This document shows, piece after piece, positions 1-17,400 of a stretch of DNA of 28,316 nt. The DNA lies in the IMG/VR virus record IMGVR_UViG_3300027851_000101, positions 1 through 28,316 of that record; one strand, given 5' to 3'. This DNA comes from a virus. The notes under the pieces are model-generated. The model worked only from the letters and a program-made list of their open reading frames with translations. It made no database searches and was not told where the DNA came from. Positions within the stretch are counted from its first letter, which is position 1. Every line of letters begins with the position of its first letter. The position numbers and the translations under genes are program-made.

Positions 1-861
1 AAGGCTTCTCAGCTAGAGCGTGGTGCTAAGAAAGTTTGGGGTGGGCTTCCTAAGGATGCAAAGGTAGAGAACCTTGAGGGTGGAGCGCAGGGTCTTGATC
101 TAGCTCTTAAGTACCTAGAACAGCTAAAGCGTGCCATGCACGAACTTACTGGTGTACCTGAGACAGCCCTAGGTCAGATGCAGCCTATTTCTAACACCTC
201 TGGTGTTGCTCTTTCTATCCAGTTCCAGCCCCTAATGAATCGCCATCAGCAGAAGGTTATTCAGTACACTAAGGGCTTGAAGAGGATTAATGAGCTTATC
301 CTTCGTACCTTGGCGGTAAAGGAACCAGAGTCGTTCGTCTACGATCCAGAAACTGACGGTCCACTAAAGGAAGGTCAGTTAGACAAGCTTGATCCTAACG
401 ACCCTATTACGTACATTACTTATCCAACCTTTCCAACTCCTCTGCCTCTTGACCAGCTTGTTCTTCTTAACGAAATTTCTATGAAGATTTCTATGGACCT
501 TGAATCTAAGGAAGGTGCTCTACGTGCCCTTGGAGAAGAGTTCCCAGAAGAGAAGCTACAAGAAATCCGCAAGGAGATGATGGAAGACGCTACTGCTGCT
601 GGTGCTCTTGCTCTTCTTAACGCAACCATTCAGGCAGAAATTGCTGAACTTACTGGGTTTATGCCTGGTCAGGACGGGCAGCCAGGTATGCCAGTTGACG
701 GCGGCGTGGATGATATGGGCAACCCAGTTGCGGCTCCACAGATGCTTGATCCTAACATTCAGGTCGGTGTTCAAGAGCAGCTTGTTACCATGGCTTACGG
801 TACAAAACTACCTTCTAGACAGATTAATTCTGAAGGCGACTCTGCTTCAGAAAAACTTTAA
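1..861 (+). CDS. Portal protein, C-terminal part (5'-truncated by window edge)
   Basis: The frame is open from base 1, so the gene begins upstream and only its last 286 residues are visible. The portal is the dodecameric ring at the capsid vertex through which DNA is packaged and ejected. The stretch AMHELTGVPETALGQ followed by NTSGVALSIQF is typical of the SPP1-gp6-like/DUF935-type portal core, where a helical stem and wing precede the crown. The following acidic helical part (about residues 110-200) would form the crown, and the tail is rich in Gly, Pro and Met. Its position just before scaffold and capsid genes fits. An internal Met at base 136 is not the real start. The family call is from motif recognition only. 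Confidence 0.85.
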   Translation, partial: KASQLERGAKKVWGGLPKDAKVENLEGGAQGLDLALKYLEQLKRAMHELTGVPETALGQMQPISNTSGVALSIQFQPLMNRHQQKVIQYTKGLKRINELILRTLAVKEPESFVYDPETDGPLKEGQLDKLDPNDPITYITYPTFPTPLPLDQLVLLNEISMKISMDLESKEGALRALGEEFPEEKLQEIRKEMMEDATAAGALALLNATIQAEIAELTGFMPGQDGQPGMPVDGGVDDMGNPVAAPQMLDPNIQVGVQEQLVTMAYGTKLPSRQINSEGDSASEKL

Positions 862-972
862 AAGGTTTTTAAGAGTTTAATGAGACGTATAGAAGACAGT
901 ACAGTTTACTTAATAGTACGAGATACGCCCATTCGGGCAAACGGACAACTAACCCTTTGATAGGACAACCGC

Positions 973-1782
973 ATGTCAGTTCCAACATTCGCTCCTATTC
1001 CTCCAACTAATAGCGAGGAATCAGTAGAGCAGTTCGCAACCGGTGTAGTAGAAAGTCAGCCAGTAGGAACTCCCCCCCACGTAACACTCCCAGAAGAGCC
1101 AGCCGCTCCTAAGTTCACAGAGGCTGACCTAGCCAGAGTACGTGAGCAGGAAAAGAATAAGCTTTACCCAGAGATTGAAAGACTTAAGCAGGAAAACAAG
1201 GCGTTTGCAGAGCAGGAAGCCGCAAGACAGCAAGCAGCAGCAAGAGCACAGGCTGAGGCTGAGGCTGAGGCACAGAGACTACGCGAAGCAGAAATGAGCG
1301 CCAAGGAGTTAATCCTTGCTAAGGAACAAGAGTGGGAAAACCGTTTCAATGCTCAGGCTCAGGCAATTGCTGAGGCCGAAGCAGAGCGTAACCGCTCACT
1401 TCAGCTCCTTCAGATGGAGCAGCAGTACCAAGAACTTCAGGCGTATAAGCAGCAGGCACTTGATGCCAATGTGGACGCGATTATGCCTGAGCTACGTGAT
1501 CTAGTAGCGGGCAACTCCCGTGAAGAGATTGACGCTAGCATTCAAAATCTTGTCGAACGATCAAATAGAATCGTTGACAGTGTTGCGCAGGCTACACAGG
1601 CTGCACGACAGCAAATGCCAGGTGCGCGAGTAACGTACCCAGCAAACGGACCTTTGGATAATAATTCGGACAACAAACAGTTTACAGATGAGCAGCTTGC
1701 TGCCATGGATTTGGCCACCTATGCGAAGAATAGACCAAACTTGATCGGAAACGGTCGAAGTAGTCAGGGAATGTTCGGTTAA
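973..1782 (+). CDS. Capsid scaffolding protein
   Basis: This 269-aa protein lies between portal and capsid genes, the usual place for a scaffold. Residues 1-50 are Pro/Thr/Glu-rich and probably disordered. Residues 50-165 are strongly charged and helical, with Ala/Glu/Gln repeats (AQAEAEAEAQRL) expected to form a long coiled coil. The C-terminus is small and basic/polar and ends KNRPNLIGNGRSSQGMFG, suited to binding the capsid protein. Scaffolds of this sort template the procapsid and leave before DNA fills it. No protease domain is visible, so a maturation protease, if any, lies elsewhere. The start has a TAGGA Shine-Dalgarno-like sequence about 9 bases upstream. Confidence 0.82.
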   Translation: MSVPTFAPIPPTNSEESVEQFATGVVESQPVGTPPHVTLPEEPAAPKFTEADLARVREQEKNKLYPEIERLKQENKAFAEQEAARQQAAARAQAEAEAEAQRLREAEMSAKELILAKEQEWENRFNAQAQAIAEAEAERNRSLQLLQMEQQYQELQAYKQQALDANVDAIMPELRDLVAGNSREEIDASIQNLVERSNRIVDSVAQATQAARQQMPGARVTYPANGPLDNNSDNKQFTDEQLAAMDLATYAKNRPNLIGNGRSSQGMFG

Positions 1783-1827
1783 GAAAAAACCCTCTTGTAA
1801 ATCTATGTTCTCGAAAGGAACACTCCT

Positions 1828-2859
1828 ATGCCATCAGCAATTACAGGTACTGGCTCACTAGCCGGTTCCCCAACTGCTTACGCTGGGTCCAACTCACAGC
1901 TTACACAGGCTATCCAGACCATTTGGTCAAAGGAAATTCTGTTCCAGGCTATGCCTATTCTTCGTTACGAGCAGTTTGCTGTAAAGAAGACTGAGCTTGG
2001 TGTTGCACCTGGTTTGACCATCAACTTCATGCGTTACATTAACATGACACCTCCAACAGCACCGCTGACTGAAGGTGTGCGTATGACCACCAAGTCTCTG
2101 ACCGCAGAGCAGATCGTTATTACCGTTGCAGAACACGGTGACGCTCTGGCTGTATCTGAGCTTCTACTTAACGCATCATTTGATGACGTTATGGCTTCTG
2201 CTTCTCGACTACTAGGCCGTAACATGGCTCAGTACCTTGACAACCAGAGCCGCGATACTCTTGGTGGTGCTACCTCTAAGATTTTCGGATACGATCGTTC
2301 AGCTCTTTCCGGAGTTAACGACTGGTACGCATACGGTACTCTTGGTACACAGGGAACTGTTACCACCGCCAATGCTACCTTCTACCTATCAACACATGCT
2401 GTTAAGGATGCTGTAGAGACACTTGCGTCTCGTAACGTTCCTCGCCTTGGTGAGACCTACGTTGCCTTTGTCCACCCTCACCAGAGCCGTCGTCTTCGTG
2501 ACGTTCCTGAGTTCATTGAGGTAACAAAGTACGCTGCTCCTGGTAACTTCATGCTAGGTGAGATCGGTCGTCTATACGACGTAGTGTTCATCGAGACCAC
2601 TCAGGTTCGCCATGGTCAGGCTGACGCTACTAACGATAAGGCTCCTTGGGAGTCAGGCTTCGTTACTGCTAACGGTGCTTCAGTTTATGAGGCTACTGTA
2701 ATCGGTGACAACGCATTTGGTCACGCTATCTCTCTACCCGTAGAGCTACGTGACGGCGGCGTTCTTGACTTCGGTCGTGAGCACGCTATCGCTTACTACG
2801 GTATCTGGGGCCAGGGTATTATTACTGACCAGGCTATCGTTAAGGTTCTAACGAACTAA
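1828..2859 (+). CDS. Major capsid protein, N4-gp56-like family
   Basis: This 343-aa protein should be the HK97-fold shell subunit. The N-terminus runs through TQAIQTIWSKEILFQAMP and LRYEQFAVKKTELGV, then LTEGVRMTTKSLT and the helix around SELLLNASFDDVM. The C-terminal end GREHAIAYYGIWGQGIIT is typical of N4-gp56-family major capsid proteins. Length fits that family. There is no obvious N-terminal delta domain, consistent with a separate scaffold gene immediately upstream. A good ribosome site (AAAGGA, 8 bases before ATG) and a strong hairpin terminator directly after the stop suggest high, separately controlled expression. Its codon use is close to that of the sheath gene, another highly expressed virion gene. 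Confidence 0.9.
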   Translation: MPSAITGTGSLAGSPTAYAGSNSQLTQAIQTIWSKEILFQAMPILRYEQFAVKKTELGVAPGLTINFMRYINMTPPTAPLTEGVRMTTKSLTAEQIVITVAEHGDALAVSELLLNASFDDVMASASRLLGRNMAQYLDNQSRDTLGGATSKIFGYDRSALSGVNDWYAYGTLGTQGTVTTANATFYLSTHAVKDAVETLASRNVPRLGETYVAFVHPHQSRRLRDVPEFIEVTKYAAPGNFMLGEIGRLYDVVFIETTQVRHGQADATNDKAPWESGFVTANGASVYEATVIGDNAFGHAISLPVELRDGGVLDFGREHAIAYYGIWGQGIITDQAIVKVLTN

Positions 2860-2870
2860 CCTGTACCACC

Positions 2871-2910
2871 CAGTGGGGGGCATCATCCAAGGTGCTCCCC
2901 ACTGTTTCTT
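2871..2910 (+). terminator. Rho-independent terminator after the capsid gene
   Basis: Stem CAGTGGGG-G-GCATC (2871-2884) pairs with GGTGC-T-CCCCACTG (2891-2904), a 14-bp stem with one G-T pair inside plus a wobble, around the 6-base loop ATCCAA. It is followed by TTTCTT. It begins 12 bases after the capsid stop codon. Likely to stop or attenuate transcription between the capsid gene and the next gene. Confidence 0.85.
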
Positions 2911-2937
2911 CCGGTCACTAACATTTAGGAAAACAAT

Positions 2938-3366
2938 ATGCCTGCTGCAAAGCCCCGTCCTACAGATGCTACAGGAGTAGCTAGGGCGAGAGAAATTAAG
3001 AAGAACGAGACTCTTGTAAAAGAGCGCGCAGAAGAGATTAGCACTATTGCTGCTAAGGAAGCCTTCGAGAACGAGAACCTTGTGTTTGACCCCTCAGTAC
3101 TAAATGAGGTAGAGGTCGTTGACGAGATTCTTGATCCGTCTGTATTACAGCCTGCTGAAGAGGTTGCGCCTGTTGTTACAGATGAGGTAGTGGTTGACAC
3201 TGAAATCACTCTTGAGGATGACTCGGTTGTAGTTCGCCTACTCGCTGACATTCCTACAATGGTCTATGGTGTAGGTAATGAGTATTCATTCATTGCTGGC
3301 CGTAAGTACCGTGTATCTAAGGAACTTGCTGGTCACCTAGAGAGCATTGGGTACCTTTACCTATAA
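2938..3366 (+). CDS. Small acidic head-region protein, unknown function
   Basis: This 142-aa protein sits alone between two hairpin terminators. Residues 1-35 are basic and helical (RAREIKKNETLVKERAEEI). Residues 50-100 are very acidic, Val-rich and probably disordered. Residues 98-142 look like a small folded domain (VRLLADIPTMVYG, then GRKYRVSKELAGHLESIGYLYL). A compact 'GRKYRVSKELAGHLE..GY' end of this kind is common in small proteins encoded after capsid genes in phages of Gram-positive hosts, where head decoration or completion roles are often suspected. I do not recognise a characterised homologue. The start follows TTTAGGAAAAC and is the only good one. Confidence 0.72.
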   Translation: MPAAKPRPTDATGVARAREIKKNETLVKERAEEISTIAAKEAFENENLVFDPSVLNEVEVVDEILDPSVLQPAEEVAPVVTDEVVVDTEITLEDDSVVVRLLADIPTMVYGVGNEYSFIAGRKYRVSKELAGHLESIGYLYL

Positions 3367-3380
3367 TCTCCATCTCAGCC

Positions 3381-3412
3381 CGACGTAGCCCCTTCGGGGG
3401 CTATTGTCGTTT
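3381..3412 (+). terminator. Hairpin terminator with TTCG tetraloop
   Basis: CGAC-G-TAGCCCC (3381-3392) pairs with GGGGCTA-TT-GTCG (3397-3409) around a TTCG tetraloop, followed by TTTA. The 7-bp GC-rich core closed by a TTCG loop is a very stable structure. It lies 15 bases after the stop of the 142-aa gene and separates it from the neck genes. Confidence 0.75.
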
Positions 3413-3466
3413 ACTGGGACAAATACTAATAGGTACGAGATGATTTAGTTAACCCTGGAGGTACTT

Positions 3467-4516
3467 TTGGCTACTATCACCAGCCTTGTAGACCGTGTTC
3501 GCCTAGAGCTTGGTGACACGGCTAAGACCTTTTCCTGGCCAACCACAGCCGTAGACGGAGTTAACCGTTACCAGATTCCTTGGTCGCCGGTACTTGCTAG
3601 TACAGTAGTTGTGTACGTTGATGGTTCATTAGTAGATGAGGATGATTACCTAGTAGAGGAATCAACAGGCACATTAATTTTTGATTCGGCCCCAACTGAC
3701 GGTGATACTATTCTTGTTACAGGGTCACACTTTAGATTCTTCACTGATACCGAACTAGAGAGTTTAGTAACCGCAGCGGTGGCTGAGCATACGTACTTGA
3801 AGACAGATGCTTTTGGTCGTCAAGTAAATATTACTAACCTGCCAGCAGTTGAAGAATACCCAGTGGCTTTGTGGGCAACGTATAAAGCGCTAATGGTTCT
3901 AGCTACTGACTCTTCATTTGATATCGACATTCAGACTCCAGATGGTGTGTCTATACCACGGTCTGAGCGCTATGGCCAGCTTTACAACATGGCACAGGCT
4001 CGTAAGGTACAATACGACGATCTTTCTAAGGCACTTAATATCGGCCTACAGAAGATTGAGGTATTCACATTTCGTCGTATTTCCCGCACCACAAATCGCT
4101 ACGTTCCTGTTTACATTCCTCAAGAAGTAGATGACCGTAGTCAGCCTCAACGTGCTTACCTCCCTCTTCCTACTTATGGAGCAGAGCCAGTACCGCAGTC
4201 TGCATCTATCTACGACATTGTATTCACTCAGGGTGATGCGTGGGAGGTTGAAATTGACTTCCCTATGGACCTAACAGGCCATACTCTAAAGGCTCAGGCT
4301 CGTCTCTACCCAGAGTCTGCTGCTGTGGTAGCAGAGTTCGCTGTTACAGTTATTTCTGCGGCTACTGGAGTTGTGAAACTATCATTAACCACAGACCAAA
4401 CTGTAAAGTTCCCTATCAAGTCTTACTGGGATTTGCAAGTTACTCCTCCTTCTGGCAAGGAGTACACATATCTAACTGGTGCTGTATTCGCAAAGAGGCA
4501 GATCACCCATGTATAG
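3467..4516 (+). CDS. Head-tail connector-like protein with C-terminal BppU-like domain
   Basis: 349 aa, TTG start chosen because CTGGAGG lies 6-7 bases upstream and the protein then begins ATITSLVDRVRLELGD, a typical head-tail adaptor start. Residues 1-80 contain a beta-rich segment (YVDGSLVDEDDYLVEESTGTL). Residues 90-210 are helical, as in connectors that sit under the portal. Residues 245-349 form a separate beta domain with QGDAWEVEIDFPMDLTGHTL, then SLTTDQTVKF and SYWDLQVT. This resembles the small beta domain seen at the N-terminus of BppU-like baseplate proteins and as stand-alone phage proteins. Fusion of that domain to a connector is unusual. The connector role is inferred from position and the N-terminus. 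Confidence 0.6.
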   Translation: MATITSLVDRVRLELGDTAKTFSWPTTAVDGVNRYQIPWSPVLASTVVVYVDGSLVDEDDYLVEESTGTLIFDSAPTDGDTILVTGSHFRFFTDTELESLVTAAVAEHTYLKTDAFGRQVNITNLPAVEEYPVALWATYKALMVLATDSSFDIDIQTPDGVSIPRSERYGQLYNMAQARKVQYDDLSKALNIGLQKIEVFTFRRISRTTNRYVPVYIPQEVDDRSQPQRAYLPLPTYGAEPVPQSASIYDIVFTQGDAWEVEIDFPMDLTGHTLKAQARLYPESAAVVAEFAVTVISAATGVVKLSLTTDQTVKFPIKSYWDLQVTPPSGKEYTYLTGAVFAKRQITHV

Positions 4517-4525
4517 GAGTAAATA

Positions 4526-4726
4526 ATGGAAGCGGGAACACAGTTTACGGCTGAGTGTCTAGCATGTCCTACGCCTTCACGTCACAAGCTTGAGTACTCT
4601 CATCAAGGTCTCCATGGAGAGGGGCCGATTTTCAAGGCTACTCACAACGATGGAAGCAGTACTTATCATACTTCTGATGCACGTAGGTATGGTCTAGAAG
4701 GCGACAAGGATCACAAGTATGTCTGA
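4526..4726 (+). CDS. Small hypothetical protein
   Basis: 66 aa, preceded by TAGGAG and overlapping the next gene by 8 bases, so translation is probably coupled. It is rich in His, Gly and Ser and has two close cysteines (CLACP) near residue 11. With the histidines further on these could bind metal, but no complete known zinc-site pattern is present. The C-terminus (ARRYGLEGDKDHKYV) is charged. I do not recognise the family. It opens the fibre/decoration island. Confidence 0.6.
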   Translation: MEAGTQFTAECLACPTPSRHKLEYSHQGLHGEGPIFKATHNDGSSTYHTSDARRYGLEGDKDHKYV

Positions 4727-4988
4727 TCAGATAATTATCACCCCACAAGAGCCACAGACTATTGAGATTAGTACTGGAATCAAAGGAGATACAGCGACAA
4801 TAGCTGTAGGCACTGTAACAACAGGAGAGCCTGGAGCAGACGCTGAGGTTACAAACTCTGGTGATACGCACGATGCAGTATTTGATTTCATTTTGCCTCT
4901 AGCTAGCACCAAATACAACATAGACGCAGGTACACCATTCTCAGTTTACGGCGGCATTGAAGAAAATATAGACGGTGGAGGTCCATAA
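4719..4988 (+). CDS. Small fibre-associated protein with GEPGAD-type motif
   Basis: 89 aa. The middle, GEPGADAEVTNSGDTHDAVF followed by DFILP, is a recognisable phage-fibre module, often found at the edge of collagen-like Gly-X-Y segments in tail and head fibres. Residues 1-35 are beta-rich (QIIITPQEPQTIEI). In many phages this module is part of a longer fibre. Here it ends shortly afterwards with a Gly-rich tail and the next gene begins at its stop codon (TAATG), so the pair could be a split fibre. Binding partner unknown. Confidence 0.65.
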   Translation: MSDQIIITPQEPQTIEISTGIKGDTATIAVGTVTTGEPGADAEVTNSGDTHDAVFDFILPLASTKYNIDAGTPFSVYGGIEENIDGGGP

Positions 4989-5545
4989 TGGCAGTACAAA
5001 TTCAGTTCCGTGGCGGAACTGCTGCTGAGTGGGAAGAGGCTAACCCTGTTCTAGCTGAACGTGAAATGGGTATTGAGACAGATACTCTACAGTTGAAGTT
5101 CGGCGATGGGGTGACTGCTTGGAACGATCTTGAGTATGGCGGTATCGCAGGTCCACAAGGTGAACGTGGTCCAGCAGGCAATAACGGAACTAACGGCACC
5201 AATGGGACCAATGGACAAGATGGTGTAGATGGAGATTGGTCTACTGCCCAGACACTAACATCAAGGAACACAGACTTTTCTATTAGCGCTTCAGATGTTG
5301 GCAAGTTCCTAACAGTAGATAGCGACGTGACAGTAACATGCACTATCTCCGATAGTCTTGGAATTCTTAACGGCCAAAGAATTGATATTGGACAGGTAGG
5401 AGAAGGACAGATTAACTTTGTAACAGACGGTACCGTAATTTGGGCTACTCCTACAGCAACTACTAGGGCGCAGTATTCAGTAGCCTCTATTGTGTACATG
5501 GGTATTGAAACCTATTGGATTATGGGCGATTTGGCGGCAGAATAA
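4988..5545 (+). CDS. Collagen-like phage fibre protein
   Basis: 185 aa. Residues 1-53 (VQIQFRGGTAAEWEEANPVL, then FGDGVTAWNDLEY) match the small N-terminal domain found at the virion-attached end of many phage fibres, including the N-terminal domain of the major tropism determinant. Residues 54-80 are collagen-like Gly-X-Y repeats (GPQGERGPAGNNGTNGTNG) that would trimerise. Residues 90-185 are a beta-sandwich-like tip ending YWIMGDLAAE. The tip shares RAQYS-V/L-A and a terminal GDLA with the fibre at 20925. Translation is coupled on both sides. Because it sits among head and neck genes it may be a head or collar fibre rather than a tail fibre. Confidence 0.75.
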   Translation: MAVQIQFRGGTAAEWEEANPVLAEREMGIETDTLQLKFGDGVTAWNDLEYGGIAGPQGERGPAGNNGTNGTNGTNGQDGVDGDWSTAQTLTSRNTDFSISASDVGKFLTVDSDVTVTCTISDSLGILNGQRIDIGQVGEGQINFVTDGTVIWATPTATTRAQYSVASIVYMGIETYWIMGDLAAE

Positions 5546-6294
5546 TGCCAAGCACTTTAGGAATTGTGGCTTCTGGTAAGCCTTCTATTAGTATACCGCC
5601 AGGAGAGCTTGTTTTGAATACCTCTATGCTTATTGTAGACTCAGTGAATCTATCAGGACAGTTGATTCCTAACAGTGGAACAGCAACTGGGTTGCTAACT
5701 GCACAACTAGGTAGTACTAGTGGTGTTGACACCAACGATCCAACTGTTAACCTTGATGGTACATTGAGCTTTACGGGTGCCCAATACCTAGTTGTACATG
5801 ATGATGCTGTCTTAAATGTTGGCTCGTTCACTGTAACTATAATGTACCGCTCCAACACCCCCCCAAGTATTAATTACCCTGCTGTTGTCAGCCGAATTCG
5901 TGCGGACTATGGATACCCAGGATGGGCTATTTTAGAAAAGCCAGCAGGAAACACAGGAATTTCCTGGGCGTACTTTGCCTCTGGTACTTCGTCTGAGAAG
6001 GTAGTATCGGTGCCTTCTCATCATGACTCCCTTTGGTATGTAAGAACGATAGTATTTGACGTGGATGCTGCTAGAATGTACTTCTACGATAATGGAGTCT
6101 CCGTTGGTACTCCTACTAATACGGCATCGGATGCCAACTATAATGCTCCTGGATACGACATTATGGTGCACGGCACAGTTGCTGGAGGCTACGTGGGCGA
6201 CATTGACTTCCGAATGCTCGCCATGAAGGACTACGCCGCCAGTCCAACAGACATTCTTAATGAAGCTACTTATCTATTAACATTGGTGGATTAA
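5545..6294 (+). CDS. LamG/concanavalin-like fibre protein
   Basis: 249 aa from the ATG that overlaps the previous stop (TAATG). A longer reading from 5515 would add ten residues but lacks that coupling. Residues 60-249 have the pattern of a LamG/concanavalin-A-like lectin domain: TLSFTGAQYLVV, then SFTVTIMYRSN, the stretch WYVRTIVFDVDAARMYFYDN and the late strand VGDIDFRMLAMKD before a helical end. This fold binds glycans in many phage adhesins. Likely role is virion surface decoration or host attachment. The same fold recurs in the proteins at 7063 and 22823, so surface glycan binding looks central to this phage. No catalytic residues were identified. Confidence 0.7.
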   Translation: MPSTLGIVASGKPSISIPPGELVLNTSMLIVDSVNLSGQLIPNSGTATGLLTAQLGSTSGVDTNDPTVNLDGTLSFTGAQYLVVHDDAVLNVGSFTVTIMYRSNTPPSINYPAVVSRIRADYGYPGWAILEKPAGNTGISWAYFASGTSSEKVVSVPSHHDSLWYVRTIVFDVDAARMYFYDNGVSVGTPTNTASDANYNAPGYDIMVHGTVAGGYVGDIDFRMLAMKDYAASPTDILNEATYLLTLVD

Positions 6295-6497
6295 TGCTTA
6301 CATCCTCTGTAAACCACAAAGGCCTTGTTATTAATGACATAGTTCTTGGTGACCCTGATATTACACCCAGATCAATACCAGCTATTTGGGGAGGTACACC
6401 AGTAACAGGCCCAATAACATACTTGTGGGATCACCCTGGTCTCCCAAACGGTATTATCACTGCTGACGGAGTACTTATGGAGAGTGAGATACAGTGA
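6294..6497 (+). CDS. Tiny protein of a three-member family (copy A)
   Basis: 67 aa, ATG overlapping the previous stop and stop overlapping the next GTG start. The pattern is NHKGLVINDIVLGDP, then a Trp (YLWDH), then PNGIITADGVLMESEI. Two other tiny proteins here, at 26171 and 26380, share the pattern [H/Y]-x-G, V-x-LG-x-P, a central W, and G-x-I...G-x-[IL]. I do not know the family. All three lie directly downstream of a gene ending in a LamG-like domain, so a partner, capping or folding role for LamG fibres is a possible inference. Confidence 0.62.
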   Translation: MLTSSVNHKGLVINDIVLGDPDITPRSIPAIWGGTPVTGPITYLWDHPGLPNGIITADGVLMESEIQ

Positions 6498-7066
6498 GAG
6501 GAAACAACGCTCTAGGTCGTTTTGATGGGGAGTTTGAGACTCACTCTATTTGGGATGGTATCTCTAGAGACCTTCAGAGGCCTGTAGGACAGCGTGTATT
6601 CTGGTATAGGTATGACCCAACACAAACAGAAGTACACCCAGTGTACGATGTTGGTAGCCCAGATGGTGGTCGTGCGTATAAAGCCCCCGTAGCGCTGCCA
6701 GTCATTAATGCCCTAGTTACTCAAGGTCAACAGTTTGATAACGACCGTGGTTTGTATATGGTCGATGTTTTGCGCCTATTTGTAAACTACGATGACGTAC
6801 AAAGAGAACTTCCTGGGTTGACTACTAACCCAGATATTTATATCAAGGATAGGGTAATCTTCCGAAATGGGGTTTACGCACCTAACCGTATTAACCCTAG
6901 AGGACAGGTAGGATATGACTACATGACTCTTACTGTCGATCTAGTACAGCTTAAGCCAGAAGAACTATACAATGACGAGTGGAATGCTGACGCACCTACC
7001 AATCTTATTGGTACGTCTATTGGTGTACAAGAACTAGGAAACTATGAGGATGGAACAATAGCATGA
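6494..7066 (+). CDS. Putative head-tail stopper-like neck protein
   Basis: 190 aa from a GTG start within GTGA, coupled to the gene upstream. Motifs include RVFWYRYDPTQTEVHPVYD, a long middle beta region (MVDVLRLFVNYDDV) and a C-terminal barrel-like part DRVIFRNGVYAPNRINPRGQ then TLTVDLVQLKPEEL. The 'DRV..rng.y.v.ri.p.G.....y.tv.l..l' pattern resembles small beta-barrel stopper/joining proteins that bind under the connector. Its location among fibre genes is odd for a stopper, but the neck genes here are interleaved with fibres. Alternative: a general virion structural protein. The assignment is inference. Confidence 0.5.
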   Translation: MRGNNALGRFDGEFETHSIWDGISRDLQRPVGQRVFWYRYDPTQTEVHPVYDVGSPDGGRAYKAPVALPVINALVTQGQQFDNDRGLYMVDVLRLFVNYDDVQRELPGLTTNPDIYIKDRVIFRNGVYAPNRINPRGQVGYDYMTLTVDLVQLKPEELYNDEWNADAPTNLIGTSIGVQELGNYEDGTIA

Positions 7067-8769
7067 CATACATTAAGCAGTCTTGGGAGAACTTCCCTTC
7101 AAAGGCTACTCCTATCTCAGCAAGCCGACTTGACCATATTGAAAATGGTATTGAAGCTGCTGCGGCTACTTCTGATTCAGCTACTACGTCCTTGTCTTCT
7201 GGCTTTCCTACTAAGAAGCCTGGAGAGCGTCTCCACGCCTATTATTTTGAACTAGGTGTCGCACACAATGTTTCAGCTTCACCCTCTGGAAGTAAGCCAA
7301 ATGTTTTGTGTGAGGTTTGGGATCAGCCTGGTGTACTAAGGCATATTTGGATGGCCACTAACAATGGTGGAGCAGAATCAGAAGGTTTGGATAACTTCCA
7401 AGAAGGTGGGTCAGTCATCCGTATCTATATTGATGACTCCACTGATCCTTACCTAGAAATGAGCCTTGGGGACTTCTTCTACTACTACCCAATGTGTGAG
7501 CCTTTTAATAACGTCCGAGTGGGACGTACTTCGAGAGCCGAAGAACTTGAGTTTTCTACTGGCGCGTACAAGTACATGTGGGTTCCATTCCAGAGGTATA
7601 TTAGAGTAGAAGTAGAGAACATTTCTCCACAGGCTGAGCCTATTTTTTACGGAGCCGCTACTCTATCATTAGTGGATGATTTTGAAGTTCTAGGAAATGC
7701 ACAACTAAAAGCACAGGTTGCTTCTGGTGGTGACGAGGAATGGCCAGTAAGAACCCCAATTACTATTGTTGATGTAGACGGTGAAGGACAGCTAGAGGCT
7801 GTACACGTTAGATATCAGGGTGACTCCGGTGGCGATGGTGCGCTAGTTGAAGGTAACTTTCTAATCTACGTAGACAATAACCCATATCCTTCTCTGCACA
7901 CTTCTGGTGGAGAGGATATGTTTGACGGCTCTTGGGGAACGGTGCCTCTTGGTGGGTACCCAACAGGAAGGGCTGGTGTTACACATGCTGCTTCTGGACA
8001 TTCCTGGTACCGCTACTTTGACTCTGTACCTATCCACTTTAACACCCACCTAAAGGTAGTCTGGTGGGTTGGACAGCCTAACCAAGGCACAACAACTGAC
8101 ACTGAAGTTGATGCCAAAGGTACTGCTTACTATTGGCTAAATTCTGCCGGTGGTTGGGAATACACAGTTGTTGACCACGACTCCGCTCCTCTTTATCAGC
8201 CCCTAATTCCTATTCCTGGTAGTATCCCGTCATGGACTACTGCCGTGTCCGGCACATGGACTGTAGACACCTCAGGCAGATTTGTGCAGGACAGCACAGA
8301 TGCGGATCAGGTTTTGGCTCTTAACAGTACTGGAATAACAACCGATTGCTGGATTGAGTCAACTGTAAGAGTGACAGGAACCACAAACGATGAAGAGTTA
8401 TTCCTGTGGGGATGTGCGGCAGCTAGTGATGGGTATGTCGGACAGCGCGCTGCTATTGAGCTTAAGCGTGGAGTGAACGATACATCTTGGTTTATCCAAG
8501 CCAGAGACGACTTCGACACTATTGCTTTAGTTGTAGTTGGTGACGGAGGAGATGTTACTGGTGTAGAGTTCGATCTAGCTCTAAAGTTTGAGGGTACTAA
8601 GGTTACGGCCTACTGGAAGTACCACAATGCTCCTATCTGGCAATCCCTGTGTTCCTGGACCTCAGCTAAGGGCCCATTCCGAAAGTTTGGTGTTGGCACC
8701 TGGGGTGGTAAGGGGACTTTCACTCCTCCAGTTATTCGACCACTAAAGACAGAAGTAAATCCTGGTTAA
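7063..8769 (+). CDS. GH172-like (DUF2961) furanosidase/receptor-binding protein with LamG-like tail
   Basis: 568 aa. Residues 1-35 (SWENFPSKATPISASRLDHI) are a common N-terminal module of phage fibres. Residues 50-360 match the DUF2961/GH172 layout: GVLRHIWMATN (90-100), IRIYIDDSTDPYLEMSLGDF (119-138), FYGAATLSLVDD, then VEGNFLIYVDN (262-272) and SLHTSGGEDMFDGSW (277-291). The last corresponds to the family GTGTEDYF-type motif. Glu263 and Glu284 are 21 apart, the same spacing I recall for the nucleophile and acid/base of characterised GH172 enzymes. Known members act on fructofuranosides or D-arabinofuranosides. Residues 388-550 are a LamG-like beta domain. Likely an adhesin that may also cut a cell-surface furanoside. 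Activity is inference. Confidence 0.75.
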   Translation: MTYIKQSWENFPSKATPISASRLDHIENGIEAAAATSDSATTSLSSGFPTKKPGERLHAYYFELGVAHNVSASPSGSKPNVLCEVWDQPGVLRHIWMATNNGGAESEGLDNFQEGGSVIRIYIDDSTDPYLEMSLGDFFYYYPMCEPFNNVRVGRTSRAEELEFSTGAYKYMWVPFQRYIRVEVENISPQAEPIFYGAATLSLVDDFEVLGNAQLKAQVASGGDEEWPVRTPITIVDVDGEGQLEAVHVRYQGDSGGDGALVEGNFLIYVDNNPYPSLHTSGGEDMFDGSWGTVPLGGYPTGRAGVTHAASGHSWYRYFDSVPIHFNTHLKVVWWVGQPNQGTTTDTEVDAKGTAYYWLNSAGGWEYTVVDHDSAPLYQPLIPIPGSIPSWTTAVSGTWTVDTSGRFVQDSTDADQVLALNSTGITTDCWIESTVRVTGTTNDEELFLWGCAAASDGYVGQRAAIELKRGVNDTSWFIQARDDFDTIALVVVGDGGDVTGVEFDLALKFEGTKVTAYWKYHNAPIWQSLCSWTSAKGPFRKFGVGTWGGKGTFTPPVIRPLKTEVNPG

Positions 8770-8806
8770 TACAGACAGGTATATAACTTCAAAGTATTCT
8801 TATTAA

Positions 8807-8827
8807 TGTAGCCCATGCGGGGCTATG
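8807..8827 (+). terminator. Weak hairpin between fibre island and neck genes
   Basis: TAGCCC (8809-8814) pairs with GGGCTA (8820-8825), plus two wobble pairs, around a 5-base loop. The stem core matches the TAGCCCC/GGGGCTA core of the terminator at 3381. There is no T-tract after it, so it may only attenuate or process the transcript. Confidence 0.35.
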
Positions 8828-8861
8828 AATACCTTGCGAGTAGTACCTGCGGAGTGTGTCT

Positions 8862-9179
8862 ATGACAACTATGTCTATGAACGTGCCCGGTACTCCTCTT
8901 TCTAAAAAGGTACGTGCTGCAATAGAAGAAGCATACCCCATCGCTGAGCAATCACTTAGAGTGTCTGCTGTGGAAGCAGGATGGCCGGTAGATGCAGCGA
9001 ATGATATATCTATCTCAGGTACAAAAATTACAGTTGGTGAACAAGCTGCTAACTGGGAATTTGGCCTGCCAGGAAAACCACCTACTCCAATAGCTAGAAA
9101 TAGCGCCACCACAAACAAAGCAGTGGCAGTTATTCTTGATGATGCCTATGCTCGTCTAAAGAAGGCTGGTGTGCTGTGA
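8862..9179 (+). CDS. Putative neck/head-tail joining protein
   Basis: 105 aa. ATG at 8862 is chosen because GGAG lies 7 bases before it. The frame is open from a GTG at 8856 but that lies one base after GGAG. The protein is alpha+beta: an N-terminal helix pair (KVRAAIEEAYPIAEQSLRVS), a short beta part (DISISGTKITVGEQAANWEF), and a C-terminal helix (AVAVILDDAYARLKKAGVL). Size and position, just before the tail-terminator-like and sheath genes, fit a small neck protein like the HK97 gp10/T4 neck class. No specific family is recognised. Translation is coupled to the next gene through GTGA. Confidence 0.5.
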   Translation: MTTMSMNVPGTPLSKKVRAAIEEAYPIAEQSLRVSAVEAGWPVDAANDISISGTKITVGEQAANWEFGLPGKPPTPIARNSATTNKAVAVILDDAYARLKKAGVL

Positions 9180-9853
9180 CATTTATTCTGGCGGAAGATG
9201 AGGCTCTAAAAGCAAAGCTACAAGGAGTAACAGTTGCAGATGCTAGCAACTCAGCCCGTCCTGTTGAGGTTTGGTTTGGGCAGCCAGATATCCAGATTAG
9301 GGAACAGAAGTACCCATATATTACTATCGACTTAGTAGACATTAGTGAGGCCAACGAAAGAGTTATGGTCTCAAATGGTGTTCGTCCGTGGTACTACAAT
9401 GTAGTATTCCCAGACGATCTGGACCAGATACCAGACGACTGGACGATGCCGTATCCTATTCCTATTAATCTTGATTACCAGATTACTTCCTACGCTCGTT
9501 CTCCTATGCACGACCGTCAGATTTTGGCCCAATTAATAGGTCAGAAGATTCCATACAGGTTTGGATCACTGTCAGTAACTGAGTATAAAGAAACTTCTGG
9601 TCCAGATGAGATTCTTCACCAGACCACAAGACGGCTAGACATGCTAGGAAGCTATAAAAGAGACTTAGTAGAGAACAACAAGAAGATGTATATGAACATC
9701 TTTACCGTGCGAGTCTCTAGTGAAATCCCTACCATTGCAGTAGCTAAGTATTTCTACCAGGTTCAGTCAATTAACCTGGAAGAGACCAGCAGTTACCCAG
9801 ATGCCCTATCCAGCCCAGACCTAACAACGACCATAACGATCACTATTCCGTAG
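9176..9853 (+). CDS. Putative tail terminator/completion protein
   Basis: 225 aa from GTG within GTGA. It lies immediately before the sheath gene. The core KYPYITIDLVDI, then IPINLDYQITSYARSPMHDR and AQLIGQKIPYRFG resembles tail-terminator proteins that cap the tube end next to the neck. These have a four-strand sheet with helices, and a conserved 'y.i...ar' strand followed by a helix over the sheet. The C-terminal 80 residues (TVRVSSEIPTIAVAKYFYQV) are extra. It ends 44 bases before the sheath start. The assignment rests on position and this weak pattern. Confidence 0.55.
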   Translation: MTFILAEDEALKAKLQGVTVADASNSARPVEVWFGQPDIQIREQKYPYITIDLVDISEANERVMVSNGVRPWYYNVVFPDDLDQIPDDWTMPYPIPINLDYQITSYARSPMHDRQILAQLIGQKIPYRFGSLSVTEYKETSGPDEILHQTTRRLDMLGSYKRDLVENNKKMYMNIFTVRVSSEIPTIAVAKYFYQVQSINLEETSSYPDALSSPDLTTTITITIP

Positions 9854-9897
9854 CATTAACTCGGTCCCCCTTGTAAACCAATCTAAGAGGAGACAAA

Positions 9898-11388
9898 ATG
9901 CCAACACCTGGCGTGTACGTAACAGAGAGCACCATTCTTGCTCCTGTACAATCTGCTGCTGTTACTGACGCTGCTGGCGTTCTTGCAGCCGAGCTTCCAC
10001 AAGGCCCTTCTACCCTAACTCTAGTTACCAGCTGGTACCAGTTCAGCAGCATCTATGGCGGCCTAAGTACAAACTATGTGGCTTCTTTCGGAGCGCAGAT
10101 GTTCTTCCGTGCTGGAGGAACTGAACTGTATGTACAGAGAATTGTTAAGGATGACGCTGACTCTGCTGCTGGTGTCCTAAAGACTACAGACGCCTCTACC
10201 TGGATTACATTTACTGCTAAGGGTGCAGGAGCGTATGGTAACAACATTCGTGTAAAGCTTGTCAAGAACTCAGCTAACCTGTGGGACCTTACAGTTCTTA
10301 AGGAAGCAGGAGTGGCTGACACCATCGTTTCCGGCCTAGTAACTGCTGGTTCTGGTGACGACCTAGTTCTAGAAAGCTTCACCAACCTTAACCTAAATAC
10401 TTTCGGACACCAGGACGTTGTTAACATTCTGTCACACCGTTCAAACTACGTTTCTGCTGAGTGGGAAGAGGCATCGTCAGCTAAGACTATTGCTTCAGGA
10501 ACTAGTTTCATCATCCCTCTGTCTGGTGGATCAGACGGATCCGGTGACCCAGACTACTCTGGAGTGACAGCCGCTATTGGTGGACTAAACCGCCCTCTAG
10601 TTATTTTCTCTCCTGGACTTACTGACACTGATGTTATTGATGAGTTCTCTACCTTCGCTGCTGCTAATGGAAGCTTCGTAGTAGTAGAGCCCGCAGCAGA
10701 CAGTACTGCCACTGAGGCCGTTACATTCGCAGGATCGCTAACATCAAGCGCCTTCGTTGGAGTGTACGCTCCTTGGGTATGGGTTGCTGACCCAACATCT
10801 TCAGCCAGGGATGCTATCTGCAAGGTACCACCGAGCGGCGCCGTCGCAGGATCAGTACTTGCAACTGACTCTAGCAAGGGAGTATTCAAGACTCCTGCTG
10901 GTCCAGACGTTGCTGTAACTGGAGTTGTAGCCCTAGAGACTGAGTGGACTTCAACTGACCTTAATACTTTGGCCGACGGTTCTCCACCAGTTAATGCTAT
11001 CCGTATCATCCCAGGTGTAGGTCCTGCAATTATGGGTGGCCGCACTACCAAGACCACTGATGCAACCAGGTTCATCAACATTCGTAGGTCGCTTAACCAG
11101 ATCACCTTCGAGCTTCAGAATCGTCTACTGTTCGCAGTTTACCAGAACAACGACGTAACCCTGTGGAACCAGGTGAAGACCGTAGTGGATGCTTACCTAA
11201 CTTCCTTCTGGCAGGCGGGTGGTCTGCGTGGAAACGTAAAGGCCAATGCATTCTACGTAAAGGTAGATGGAGAGAACAACACTGCAACAGATATCGCCAA
11301 TGGTGTTCTGAATGTAGAAGTTGGTGTCGCTCTACAGTACCCAGCAGAGTTTATCCGTATTAACCTAACCCAGCAAACAGGAATCTAA
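9898..11388 (+). CDS. Tail sheath protein
   Basis: 496 aa. The N-terminus PTPGVYVTE is the hallmark of contractile tail sheaths, and the following AGVLAAELPQGP and LVTSWYQFSSIYGG match the family. Residues 100-190 include GAYGNNIRVKLVK, the conserved 'G..gN.i.v.v' strand. The C-terminal half contains NAIRIIPGVGPAIMGGRTT, FINIRRSLNQI, ELQNRLLFAVYQNND and TSFWQAGGLRG, then YVKVDGENNT and VEVGVALQYPAEFIRINLTQ. These give the inter-subunit strand exchange that links sheath rings. The sheath contracts to drive the tube through the envelope. The ribosome site AAGAGGAG is excellent. This gene shows that the phage is a myovirus. Confidence 0.95.
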   Translation: MPTPGVYVTESTILAPVQSAAVTDAAGVLAAELPQGPSTLTLVTSWYQFSSIYGGLSTNYVASFGAQMFFRAGGTELYVQRIVKDDADSAAGVLKTTDASTWITFTAKGAGAYGNNIRVKLVKNSANLWDLTVLKEAGVADTIVSGLVTAGSGDDLVLESFTNLNLNTFGHQDVVNILSHRSNYVSAEWEEASSAKTIASGTSFIIPLSGGSDGSGDPDYSGVTAAIGGLNRPLVIFSPGLTDTDVIDEFSTFAAANGSFVVVEPAADSTATEAVTFAGSLTSSAFVGVYAPWVWVADPTSSARDAICKVPPSGAVAGSVLATDSSKGVFKTPAGPDVAVTGVVALETEWTSTDLNTLADGSPPVNAIRIIPGVGPAIMGGRTTKTTDATRFINIRRSLNQITFELQNRLLFAVYQNNDVTLWNQVKTVVDAYLTSFWQAGGLRGNVKANAFYVKVDGENNTATDIANGVLNVEVGVALQYPAEFIRINLTQQTGI

Positions 11389-12861: not shown

Positions 12862-13018
12862 GTATATTGAGGGTAGAGAAACTACATACCGGTATCTGTA
12901 TGAAGACTTCGAAGCTATCTCGTCAGCCTACCCTGGCTGGTCTTTAGAAGAAGTGAAGAGTCTCTCTATCAGAGAACGAATTAACTGGTTGGAGCTGTAC
13001 TATAAGAAAGGTAGGTGA
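12862..13018 (+). CDS. Tail assembly chaperone, +1-frame extension (long form by frameshift)
   Basis: After the TAA stop, the frame one base ahead (+1) stays open to TGA at 13016-13018 and reads YIEGRETTYRYLYEDFEAIS, then WSLEEVKSLSIRERINWLEL and YYKKGR. This is a typical helical chaperone tail (ERINWLELYYKK). It has no early ATG, GTG or TTG in that frame, so independent initiation is unlikely. A ribosome slipping +1 near the end of the short form (for example at TTT-C, 12850-12853, or at TTC-TAA) would fuse about 55 residues to it. The stop overlaps the GTG of the tape measure. Confidence 0.75.
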
Positions 13019-15825
13019 ATATGAGCACTCTATATGACGTTCAGGCTGTTGGTAAAGAAATTGAGAAGATCGTCAACGGTCTTATCCAGGCTGAAAAGTC
13101 TATTAAGAACTCAGTAAAGAGTGCCAAGTCCCTATCTAGTGGTTCTGTTAATGGTGCCCCTGCTGCCTCCTTCGGGGGTCTAAGCGACCAGACAAAAGCA
13201 GTACTAAATAAGTACTCCGCTGCTGGCGGTGGTGGTACTGGAGTTATGGCTACCTCTCTCGGAGTCATTACTGCTGGTATTGGCGCTATGTGGAACTCAG
13301 TTCCTGGTGTGGATGATGCGTACAAGTACAAGTCTGAAATCTTCAATACTTCTTTTGCTGCCTCAGGCAGATTTAACTCACCCAGTGTATTCGGCTCTGT
13401 AAAGGCTAGCTTTGGTTCTGGGTTTGATGCTACTGGCGTAAACGCTGCATCAATGATGACTAATGCTGGTATCGGACCAGCAAGCTCTCGCTTTGGTTCT
13501 ACTATGAACCAGGCTGGGTTCCTCTCTTCTTTCAGCGGACGCTCTAACGAGTCTACTACTGCTGGTATGATTTCTCTACAGCAGGGATCACAAGGAGTAG
13601 TTGGTAACCTAGCATCCTTCGGAATCTTTGTAACTGACCCCAAGACTGGAAAGTCTGGTGGCCTTCAGTCTATTGTTGATCAGATTTGGCTACGTTGGTA
13701 CGGATCATCTACAGCCAAGGTTGACCCGATTCAGTTTGAAGCTGATCTTATGGGTGGCTGGGTTGGCTCTGACATGTCTACCCTGTTTGGGGGTAACCCA
13801 GAACTTTACCAGAACGTTCTTGACGCTCTAAGAATTAAGGTCAAGGCAGGCGGACGCTCTGTAAGTTACAGTAATAAGGCTAGGGGTAAGAACTCTGCTT
13901 CTGGTGTAGTCTCAGGTGCCGGTGTAAGGACCGAGGACCAGCCGTGGGGGACTCGTCAGAAACTTGAGCAAGGGCGTATGGAGAATATTGCTGACGCCTC
14001 AGACGCCCTTATACAAGGTTTCCAAGACGCTGCTGTAGTTATTGACACCTTTAACAAGAGCATGAATGCCATCATCAACTCCCCCTTTGGGCAGCTTGGT
14101 ATGCGTACTAAGGGAGCAACAGACTCTCTTATGGGATCACAAGAACTTGGTGGACTAGGTGGGTTCCTGGGTGGGTTGGCAGGATCATTTGGTGCCCGAG
14201 TACTGGCCGGTGGAGGAAGCCTCCTAGGAGCTGCTAAAAACATATTCACTCGTAACCCGAAGGTCGTACCTTTTAACAGAAGTGGTAGTACATCTGCTCC
14301 TTCAGCGACAACAGGATTACGTGGAATTAAGGGTGGCATTATTGCAACTGGTGCTGCTGCTATTGCAGGAATGGTTATGCCAGAAGGACCAGTGAAGGAT
14401 CTTATGTTTGGTGCCCCAGTAGGCACTACAACTACAACTTCTGACGGTTCAACAATGACACGCACTGGAGATGGTACATGGATAAGAACCCTTCCTGGGC
14501 ATGGCACTTTTGGTGAGGGCTCTGGTTCTACATTTGGCAGCGGACAGGGAGGAAGTCTTCCTAGAGATACTTCCTCTGCTATGTCTTGGGCGGCTGCATC
14601 ACAGTCAATGACTGGACAGTTCGACGGCTTGTGTGATCGTTACGTTGCTAACGTATACGGACTTGCTCATTCTGGGTATGAAACTGCTCGCGCTCACTGG
14701 CAGGCAATCCCTGATGAGTACAAGTACCCTGGAGATAAGAACCCTCCTGTAGGCGCACTTGTTTTCTGGAACGTAGGTAATTCAGGACACGTTGCAGTAG
14801 TAGTAAGCAGTGGACCTACTGTTAGTACCACTCACGTTGGTGGTACTCCAACTCAGATGTCTCTAGAGGAATGTACTCGCCAGCTTGGTGGCTGGGGAAC
14901 CTACTACGGATGGTCTAAGCCTTACTTTGGTGGTGACTCTGCTGACGTTGGCGGGGCTGCTAGTTCAGAAGCAAGTGCTACCTCTGCTGCTATCAGTAGG
15001 ACTAATTATATTCAGCCCTCAACTGGTGGATCAGATATCCTTGGTAACCCTAACGCTATGACGAGTGGGCTGAGTGCTGGTGGAATTCTTAGTAGCCTAG
15101 GTAACCCAATAATGGGCGGAGATGCAAACAGCACTTCCTCTCCTGGTACTTCTGCTAACCCTACCTCTATCGGTGGGTCTTCTCTTGGCGGAGCTACTAA
15201 GAGTGTGGTTGGTTCTAAGGGGCTAATTGGAGTTCTACAAAAGGCTGGATTTAAGGGGCAGCACCTGAGGGAAGCGTACGCTATTGCTATGCGTGAGTCC
15301 TCAGGACACGCTAACTCCCACAACACAAACAAGGCTACTGGCGACAACTCTTACGGACTGTTCCAAATCAACATGCTTGGGAAGCTTGGCCCAGACAGGG
15401 ATAGCAAATTCAGAAAGCATGTGCCTGGATACAATGGGCCAGAATCACTATTCGATCCAGAGGTCAACGCTAGGGCTGCTGCATATATGTCACAGCGTGG
15501 TAAGAACTGGGGTTCTTGGGTCTCACCTACTTATGGTAGGGCTGCTGAATACTATGCTTCTTACCCTGGTGCTTCTTCTGGAATGATGCTTTCTAGGGAC
15601 CAACTAGTTAACGCACACGCTGGTGAGATGATTGTTCCTGCGTACCAGACTACTCAACTTAAGGAACTTCTTCAGGGTGGAATAAACGGACTAAAGGGTA
15701 CTACTAACGTAACAATCAATGTTAACGTCCCTAGTGTTTCACGAGAAGAAGCTACTAAGTTTGCTAAGTGGGTGAAGCAAGACATGGAAAGTGATTCTGT
15801 TATTGATAGATTGAGGTCACGATGA
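13015..15825 (+). CDS. Tape measure protein with CHAP/NlpC-like and lysozyme-like domains
   Basis: 936 aa from GTG inside GTGA; ATG at 13021 is an alternative (934 aa). Residues 1-130 are helical then Gly/Ser/Ala-rich, and residues 370-460 are apolar and Gly-rich (GLGGFLGGLAGSFGARVLAG), as expected of a tape measure. Residues 520-640 look like a CHAP/NlpC-P60 peptidase: Cys540 in GLCDRYVANVYG and His592 in GHVAVVVSS. Residues 735-850 form a lysozyme-like domain with Glu761 in AMRESSGHANSHN and SYGLFQINM. The C-terminus (HAGEMIVPAYQTTQL, NVTINVNVPSV) is typical of tape measures. It sets tail length and probably opens murein during injection. Confidence 0.88.
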   Translation: MNMSTLYDVQAVGKEIEKIVNGLIQAEKSIKNSVKSAKSLSSGSVNGAPAASFGGLSDQTKAVLNKYSAAGGGGTGVMATSLGVITAGIGAMWNSVPGVDDAYKYKSEIFNTSFAASGRFNSPSVFGSVKASFGSGFDATGVNAASMMTNAGIGPASSRFGSTMNQAGFLSSFSGRSNESTTAGMISLQQGSQGVVGNLASFGIFVTDPKTGKSGGLQSIVDQIWLRWYGSSTAKVDPIQFEADLMGGWVGSDMSTLFGGNPELYQNVLDALRIKVKAGGRSVSYSNKARGKNSASGVVSGAGVRTEDQPWGTRQKLEQGRMENIADASDALIQGFQDAAVVIDTFNKSMNAIINSPFGQLGMRTKGATDSLMGSQELGGLGGFLGGLAGSFGARVLAGGGSLLGAAKNIFTRNPKVVPFNRSGSTSAPSATTGLRGIKGGIIATGAAAIAGMVMPEGPVKDLMFGAPVGTTTTTSDGSTMTRTGDGTWIRTLPGHGTFGEGSGSTFGSGQGGSLPRDTSSAMSWAAASQSMTGQFDGLCDRYVANVYGLAHSGYETARAHWQAIPDEYKYPGDKNPPVGALVFWNVGNSGHVAVVVSSGPTVSTTHVGGTPTQMSLEECTRQLGGWGTYYGWSKPYFGGDSADVGGAASSEASATSAAISRTNYIQPSTGGSDILGNPNAMTSGLSAGGILSSLGNPIMGGDANSTSSPGTSANPTSIGGSSLGGATKSVVGSKGLIGVLQKAGFKGQHLREAYAIAMRESSGHANSHNTNKATGDNSYGLFQINMLGKLGPDRDSKFRKHVPGYNGPESLFDPEVNARAAAYMSQRGKNWGSWVSPTYGRAAEYYASYPGASSGMMLSRDQLVNAHAGEMIVPAYQTTQLKELLQGGINGLKGTTNVTINVNVPSVSREEATKFAKWVKQDMESDSVIDRLRSR

Positions 15826-16019: not shown

Positions 16020-17134
16020 TGGCAAAGCCTGATCCATATAACTACAACAAGGCTGGCAGTAAAACTACCAGCAACCTTATTGAGTTCAACCCGCCTATCA
16101 ATCGTTTTGCTAGTGGGGCATACGCTGACAGTAGAAAGAACGAGCTATCAACCAACCCCAACACGGGACGAAATGATATCTTAGGTCCGGACTCTCTACA
16201 GGTTCGTTCACTAAATAAAGGCGTTATCTACCAGGACTTTGGGACTGCTGTAACAGATAAGGGAGATTCTTCTTGGGGTGTAACAAATCCTCAGTACAAG
16301 AACTTCAAGACTATTGGTGATACTAGGTTTGGGTTTAAGTTTCATTACAACCCGTCTACTATTGACTTTTCTGTCAATGCGGAAAACAAAACTATTGATC
16401 CTGCGCTGATCCTTTCTGGAACCAGTAGGGCTATGCCTATTGCTCCTCCTAGCCTCCCACTAGTTAACTTCTCTTTGATTATCAATCGTATTGAAGATGT
16501 GACCATGCTTAGAAAGGGAAGTTTTGGCAATAAAGACATGAAGTACTTTTATGGCCGAAACTTAAGTGATCAAGAAGTAAAGGGCATAACTACTAGAGGC
16601 AGTGGTTATGATCTGGAGTACCTGTTCAGAACTATGCTTGGTCGTCCTTATGTCACTGATCTTAGGGGAACTACTGCGGATATTGGTGTAGCATTTGGAC
16701 TACCTCTTATTCTTGACTTCTCTCCCAAGACTCTGACAGAGGCTAAAACTAGTAATACTTCTTATGTGTTGTCCGACGGCGTAAATCAGGCTCAGCACGG
16801 ACAGCGTTACTGGGGAAGAATCTCTTCTATATCATACACACATAGAGAGTTCACCCAAGAGATGATACCGATGTTTACCGAGGTCTCTGTTAACTTTGCT
16901 AGATTCCCTGATGCTAAGGGTGAAAGACCCGACTTACAGCAGGACACATCTGACCCAAATAGTGCGGCACAGCTAGCAAATGGAGCAAGACTTACAGGTC
17001 TAGCAAAGGAATACTTTGCAGGACAGCACTATGTTCCTTGGACTGGGCAGGTAGAATCTCAATACAAGTACTACTACCAAGGCGCGGACGGCAGTGTTCA
17101 TTACGGACCTATACCATCAGAGGAACCAGAATGA
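16019..17134 (+). CDS. Tail hub/tube-initiator-like protein
   Basis: 371 aa. The central part has FGFKFHYNPSTIDFSV, then LPLVNFSLIINRIEDVTML, and later YWGRISSISYTHREFTQEMI and PMFTEVSVNFARFPD. 'F.yNP..i..s' and the late strand 'v.is....' are features of the tube-initiator or hub-adaptor proteins (CIS-tube type) that connect the tube to the baseplate hub. The N-terminal 80 residues are polar and probably disordered. It is followed by LysM-like, hub, gp25-like and J-like genes, the same order as in contractile injection systems. Exact position in the baseplate is not provable from sequence alone. Confidence 0.6.
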   Translation: MAKPDPYNYNKAGSKTTSNLIEFNPPINRFASGAYADSRKNELSTNPNTGRNDILGPDSLQVRSLNKGVIYQDFGTAVTDKGDSSWGVTNPQYKNFKTIGDTRFGFKFHYNPSTIDFSVNAENKTIDPALILSGTSRAMPIAPPSLPLVNFSLIINRIEDVTMLRKGSFGNKDMKYFYGRNLSDQEVKGITTRGSGYDLEYLFRTMLGRPYVTDLRGTTADIGVAFGLPLILDFSPKTLTEAKTSNTSYVLSDGVNQAQHGQRYWGRISSISYTHREFTQEMIPMFTEVSVNFARFPDAKGERPDLQQDTSDPNSAAQLANGARLTGLAKEYFAGQHYVPWTGQVESQYKYYYQGADGSVHYGPIPSEEPE

Positions 17135-17400
17135 TTAGATTAAGTAGTAGGTACGCCGATGGCGAAATTCTATTTATCCGAGATCCAAAGACTGGGAATA
17201 CTGTACCTACGGTGCTTAGGACTGTGGTTCCTTCCTCTACCCATTCTATTGTTCACAGATGGAAGGACGGAGATAGAGTAGACATACTAGGAAAAACTGT
17301 AGAGGACAAGGCACATTTGTGGTGGAAGATTTTCGACCAGAATAGTGAGTATATTGATCCTCTTACTGTACCTCACGGAGCAAGTGTGGTGATTAGATGA
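17131..17400 (+). CDS. LysM-like baseplate protein
   Basis: 89 aa from the ATG in ATGA at 17131 (a longer frame from 17038 overlaps the previous gene and lacks coupling). The part SIVHRWKDGDRVDILGKTVE, then LWWKIFDQNSEYIDPL and VPHGASVVI follows the LysM-like fold of T4 gp53-type baseplate proteins: a 'gDr.d.La....d..lWW.I.d.N....p..l..G..v.i' pattern. In myophages and injection systems this protein joins hub and wedge and may not bind murein. It is coupled to the hub gene. Confidence 0.7.
   Translation: MIRLSSRYADGEILFIRDPKTGNTVPTVLRTVVPSSTHSIVHRWKDGDRVDILGKTVEDKAHLWWKIFDQNSEYIDPLTVPHGASVVIR

Follow-up and report, generated by a model that had tools for sequence, protein, structure and literature searches.

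The gene at positions 7063 to 8769 (plus strand) of the window, that is, of the whole 28,316-nucleotide stretch of viral DNA analysed here (IMG/VR record IMGVR_UViG_3300027851_000101), raises the question of what a protein of the GH172/DUF2961 type could be doing among the structural genes of a phage. GH172 is a small enzyme family, defined only recently, that has its fold in common with double jelly-roll virus capsids; the papers found on GH172 and DUF2961 concern cellular organisms, a bacterial predator included.

Examination of the gene revealed an ORF for a spike-like protein of 568 amino acids, designated P0001, which begins with ATG, overlaps the upstream gene by 4 bases and has a GC3 resembling that of the adjacent phage genes. 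Residues 118-357 match the Pfam family DUF2961 (PF11175) with 93.4 bits against a curated cut-off of 27 (E=2e-26), and a phmmer search of the PDB returned 7v1v (alphaFFase1, 4e-7) and 4kq7 (BACUNI_00161, 7e-6). The motifs RHIWMATN (residues 93-100), RIYIDDSTDPYLEMSLGDF (120-138) and SGGEDMF (281-287) had led the preliminary description to propose this family, an identification borne out by these matches and by the predicted fold. An AlphaFold model built from a 67-sequence alignment, whose quality is good for the GH172 core and poor for the rest, places a GH172-type double jelly-roll domain at residues ~41-383 (positions 7183 to 8211, plus strand). The comparison with GH172 structures that had been proposed as a check favoured the family, since all four solved proteins were matched: ExoMA1 (8IC8) with Z 31.9 and an rmsd of 3.0 over 328 residues, BACUNI_00161 (4KQ7) with Z 29.9, alphaFFase1 (7V1V) with 29.6 and DgGH172c (8AH3) with 29.4. 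A search of BFVD with the same fold yielded one similar viral model, UPI001E6B8B39. By family and fold alone, the assignment of P0001 to GH172/DUF2961 is nearly certain.

P0001 shares with the four solved proteins the double jelly-roll, both catalytic glutamates, the following aspartate and the equivalents of W298 and Y187' of alphaFFase1, but differs from them by its identity of only ~23-24%, by two replacements in the pocket, by an additional N-terminal anchor and C-terminal sandwich, and by its location in a phage structural operon. In a maximum-likelihood tree it forms the outermost, isolated branch, with ~5.8 changes per site, a length at which the exact placement is unsure. No close homologue that would allow selection to be gauged was found. 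By its sequence, P0001 is a very diverged GH172 member with its catalytic residues intact.

The two glutamates are E263 (positions 7849 to 7851, plus strand) and E284, the latter followed by D285, which corresponds to D292 of alphaFFase1 (positions 7912 to 7917 for both, plus strand). The phmmer alignment pairs E263 and E284 with E270 and E291 of alphaFFase1, and multiple alignments concur. They lie 21 residues apart, the spacing also found in both published catalytic pairs, E270/E291 in alphaFFase1 and E233/E254 in DgGH172c. The pair and its spacing had been correctly recognised in the preliminary description, but the two roles had been given in the wrong order: as alphaFFase1 uses E270 as acid/base and E291 as nucleophile, E263 is the predicted acid/base of P0001 and E284 its predicted nucleophile.

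The surroundings of this pair are partly preserved and partly remodelled. The remaining -1 subsite residues of alphaFFase1, W298 and Y187', the latter supplied by the neighbouring subunit, align with W291 and Y196 of P0001 and are thus kept. A tryptophan of the -1/+1 subsites (W267) is replaced by Ala260 and the threonine preceding the nucleophile (T290, in GTGTED) by Gly283, whereas both residues are common to the four solved members; T288 has become S281. The position of Met286 is occupied by Leu in DgGH172c and by Phe in BACUNI_00161. Neither W267 nor the GTGTED threonine is universal, as they are also absent from other, uncharacterised family members; FLEG-type motifs without the tryptophan occur in one cellular GH172/DUF2961 branch, and TGGED occurs in L160. 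Among the calcium-site residues of alphaFFase1 (N31', D33' and N272), N272 corresponds to N265, the N-terminal part of P0001 being too diverged for a sure alignment. Because P0001 keeps 33 of 57 strongly conserved columns (those conserved in >=92% of 66 relatives) and has changed the other 24, the retained catalytic trio is on its own weak evidence of activity. The predicted active site is plausibly functional.

On either side of the GH172 domain, P0001 carries additional regions. Residues 1-39 (positions 7063 to 7179, plus strand) form a presumed virion anchor matching the phage minor tail family phrog_2012 (E=1.6e-10) and, more weakly, the head fibre family phrog_5711 (E=1.7e-5); mycobacteriophage minor tail proteins share 71-74% identity with residues 1-31. 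Such a short module points to attachment to the virion, and not to a particular host, and the head-fibre match would also allow a head or neck location. The C-terminal ~190 residues (~385-568; positions 8215 to 8766, plus strand) were predicted as a beta-sandwich resembling ConA-like sandwiches such as CBM66, in a low-confidence model obtained from the single sequence; this domain had no sequence match in Pfam or the PDB, and searches with it yielded no relatives. The LamG-like domain formerly attributed to P0001 finds no Pfam support there even at E<=10, and a Pfam Laminin_G_3 domain sits in a separate ORF at positions 5515-6294. That ORF follows a gene for a Mtd_N and collagen-like protein at 4988-5545, and a 1225-amino acid protein of the relative L100 (L100:14760-18437) begins with the same Mtd_N start.

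The capsid, sheath and baseplate J proteins of the window find their best annotated-phage matches in the Streptomyces myophages GiJojo, pSt2308, LuckySocke, Alone3 and BRock, with a capsid identity of 66-67%; closer capsids occur in many metagenomic contigs. The order of the scaffold, tube and other structural genes is common to the window and these phages. Judging from these genes, the window is a contractile-tailed, actinomycete-type myophage related to Streptomyces phages. Its protein in tape-measure position (13015-15825) bears CHAP and SLT/lysozyme-like domains.

Comparison with these relatives delimits a variable slot, bordered on the left by a conserved structural gene for 190 amino acids (positions 6494 to 7066, plus strand), which has homologues likewise placed in GiJojo and BRock and in many contigs, and on the right by a tail-terminator homologue (9176 to 9853, plus strand) matching GiJojo gene 79. 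The GH172-type gene of the window lies in this interval, and thus in the spike position of the structural operon, as do the tailspikes of its kin. In GiJojo the slot holds a tailspike with pectate-lyase and K1-lyase_C domains (gp76) and in BRock a K1-lyase_C protein; these proteins share with P0001 the slot and its homologous flanking genes, but have other domains and another N-terminal anchor. A 603-amino acid GDSL esterase occupies it in L140 (L140:6467-8278), so that one phage slot houses several unrelated enzyme folds. An IS605 OrfB/TnpB-like transposase with a Cas12f1-like TNB domain is found there in L141 (IMGVR_UViG_3300027319_000002, 17082-18275), and a large insert is absent from L107, L110, L114, L120, L145, L155 and L156.

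Our preferred reading, to which we give a probability of about 0.5 when taken whole and with activity included, is that P0001 is a spike-like, virion-anchored protein, in which a GH172 fold recruited long ago into an interchangeable receptor/depolymerase slot trims a host glycan. The first ~40 residues, by their homology to minor-tail N-termini, would anchor it at the neck or the tail, and P0001 is presumably present in the virion. The GH172 domain would trimerise like its cellular relatives, with active sites forming at the subunit interfaces, where E263 would serve as acid/base and E284 as nucleophile. The C-terminal sandwich might bind glycan, and during adsorption P0001 would bind a host surface glycan at its terminal furanosyl-type residues and trim these. 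The retention of the catalytic residues on so long a branch (~5.8 changes per site) was counted in favour of an enzyme. In broader terms, P0001 is on balance predicted to be a virion-anchored, enzymatically active module targeting a surface glycan. The finding of a diverged GH172 protein with intact catalytic residues at the place of a tailspike suggests that this phage probably engages its host surface by means of an unusual enzyme.

The same features could be explained by a spike that only binds, in which catalysis was lost and the GH172 domain serves as a trimeric, lectin-like scaffold for receptor recognition. The loss of the pocket Trp and Thr, the extreme divergence and the 24 altered columns all agree with this possibility, which we hold to be real yet distinctly the less probable, as both catalytic glutamates, D285, W291 and Y196 are retained and the cellular branch with FLEG motifs also lacks the tryptophan, whose loss therefore need not equal inactivity. 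A purely structural role, with the double jelly-roll as a decoration of head, neck or tail without any part in glycan recognition, is suggested by published work that relates DUF2961, as a cellular homologue, to double jelly-roll capsid proteins, by the capsid proteins of STIV and PRD1 as the next-best structural matches of the model (Z 11-12) and by the match of the N-terminus to a head-fibre family. This role seems improbable to us given Z values of 29-32 to GH172 proteins against ~12 to capsid proteins, the retained catalytic residues and the glycan- or ester-active proteins carried in the slots of related phages.

The proposal of the preliminary description, that P0001 is an arabinan-cutting, receptor-binding depolymerase from a phage of mycolic-acid bacteria, has in its favour that D-arabinan is a substrate of characterised GH172 enzymes, that the first 31 residues show similarity to mycobacteriophage minor tail proteins and that a GH183 endo-arabinanase is known from a phage. 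We nevertheless regard it as the least probable of the alternatives, and very unlikely. The best capsid, sheath and baseplate matches are to Streptomyces phages, and the 31-residue anchor is the sole link to mycobacteriophages. The subsite residues of P0001, with two pocket positions changed, are unlike those of the arabinofuranosidases, and at position 292 it has the Gly of the fructofuranosidase alphaFFase1 instead of the Asn of ExoMA1, though Gly is common across the family. Since its site is unlike that of every characterised enzyme, it would be unsafe to carry a substrate over to P0001 from characterised GH172 proteins. The label of depolymerase is itself doubtful: the characterised D-arabinan-active GH172 enzymes are exo-acting and remove terminal residues, so that P0001, if it acts as in our preferred reading, would be better named a trimming, receptor-engaging enzyme. 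The GH183 (DUF4185) endo-D-arabinanase of Gordonia phage GMA6 does provide a precedent for a phage-borne furanosidase, but belongs to another family, is endo-acting and was reported from actinobacteriophage lysis cassettes.

What P0001 represents is an enzyme fold already known, taken up into the spike slot of a phage. No description of a phage GH172 was found in the open-licence literature on GH172 or DUF2961. We would put forward only tentatively, and with some doubt, that the virion contains an active enzyme of GH172 fold whose remodelled -1/+1 subsite reflects a new substrate specificity; none of the papers searched reports such an enzyme from a phage spike. A GH172 protein at this receptor/depolymerase position would bring a further catalytic fold to the known spikes of tailed phages, and would mean that a single slot exchanges enzymes of unrelated fold, from pectate lyase and GDSL esterase to GH172. 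Such an enzyme, whose specificity for furanosides may be new, would also be a probe for actinobacterial surface glycans.

Searches with P0001 and a typical cellular GH172 protein revealed no true phage carrier of DUF2961 among 50,697 annotated phage records; the domain was likewise found in 0 of 34 capsid-related records and in none of 14 control genomes, the same search detecting the window's own gene. Viral contigs searched with P0001 alone yielded no relatives, and no close cellular donor was found in ~690 genomes of three phyla (best E-value ~1e-10). Three records labelled 'Bacteriophage sp.' and carrying DUF2961 (L006, L007 and L008; MT836379, MT838830 and MT835583) were set aside, as they resemble fragments of bacterial chromosomes, with polysaccharide-utilisation genes in L006 and L008 and other cellular genes in L007. 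In the viral contig L011 the gene is truncated and lies amid non-phage genes, and the enzyme encoded by L013, which matches residues 1-429 of P0001, is of the ordinary cellular kind, its gene lying among metabolic genes.

Scans of 2.9 million viral contigs with short conserved patterns, which diverged copies could escape, identified one true phage lineage with DUF2961 (L009/L010). As in the window, its gene lies within a phage tail operon, flanked by Dit-like and Tal-like genes as read from the ORFs. Unlike P0001, the protein has 342 amino acids, lacks an anchor and is separated by branches of 0.05-0.2 from copies of Bacilli and gut metagenomes, and it appears to be a recent host-type acquisition. 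In L009 (IMGVR_UViG_3300031760_000911, 1-10351), a tape-measure gene and a Dit-like gene form a pair that is present in two copies; a nitroreductase-like ORF separates these and DUF2961 follows the second, an arrangement due either to tandem duplication or to an artefact of assembly.
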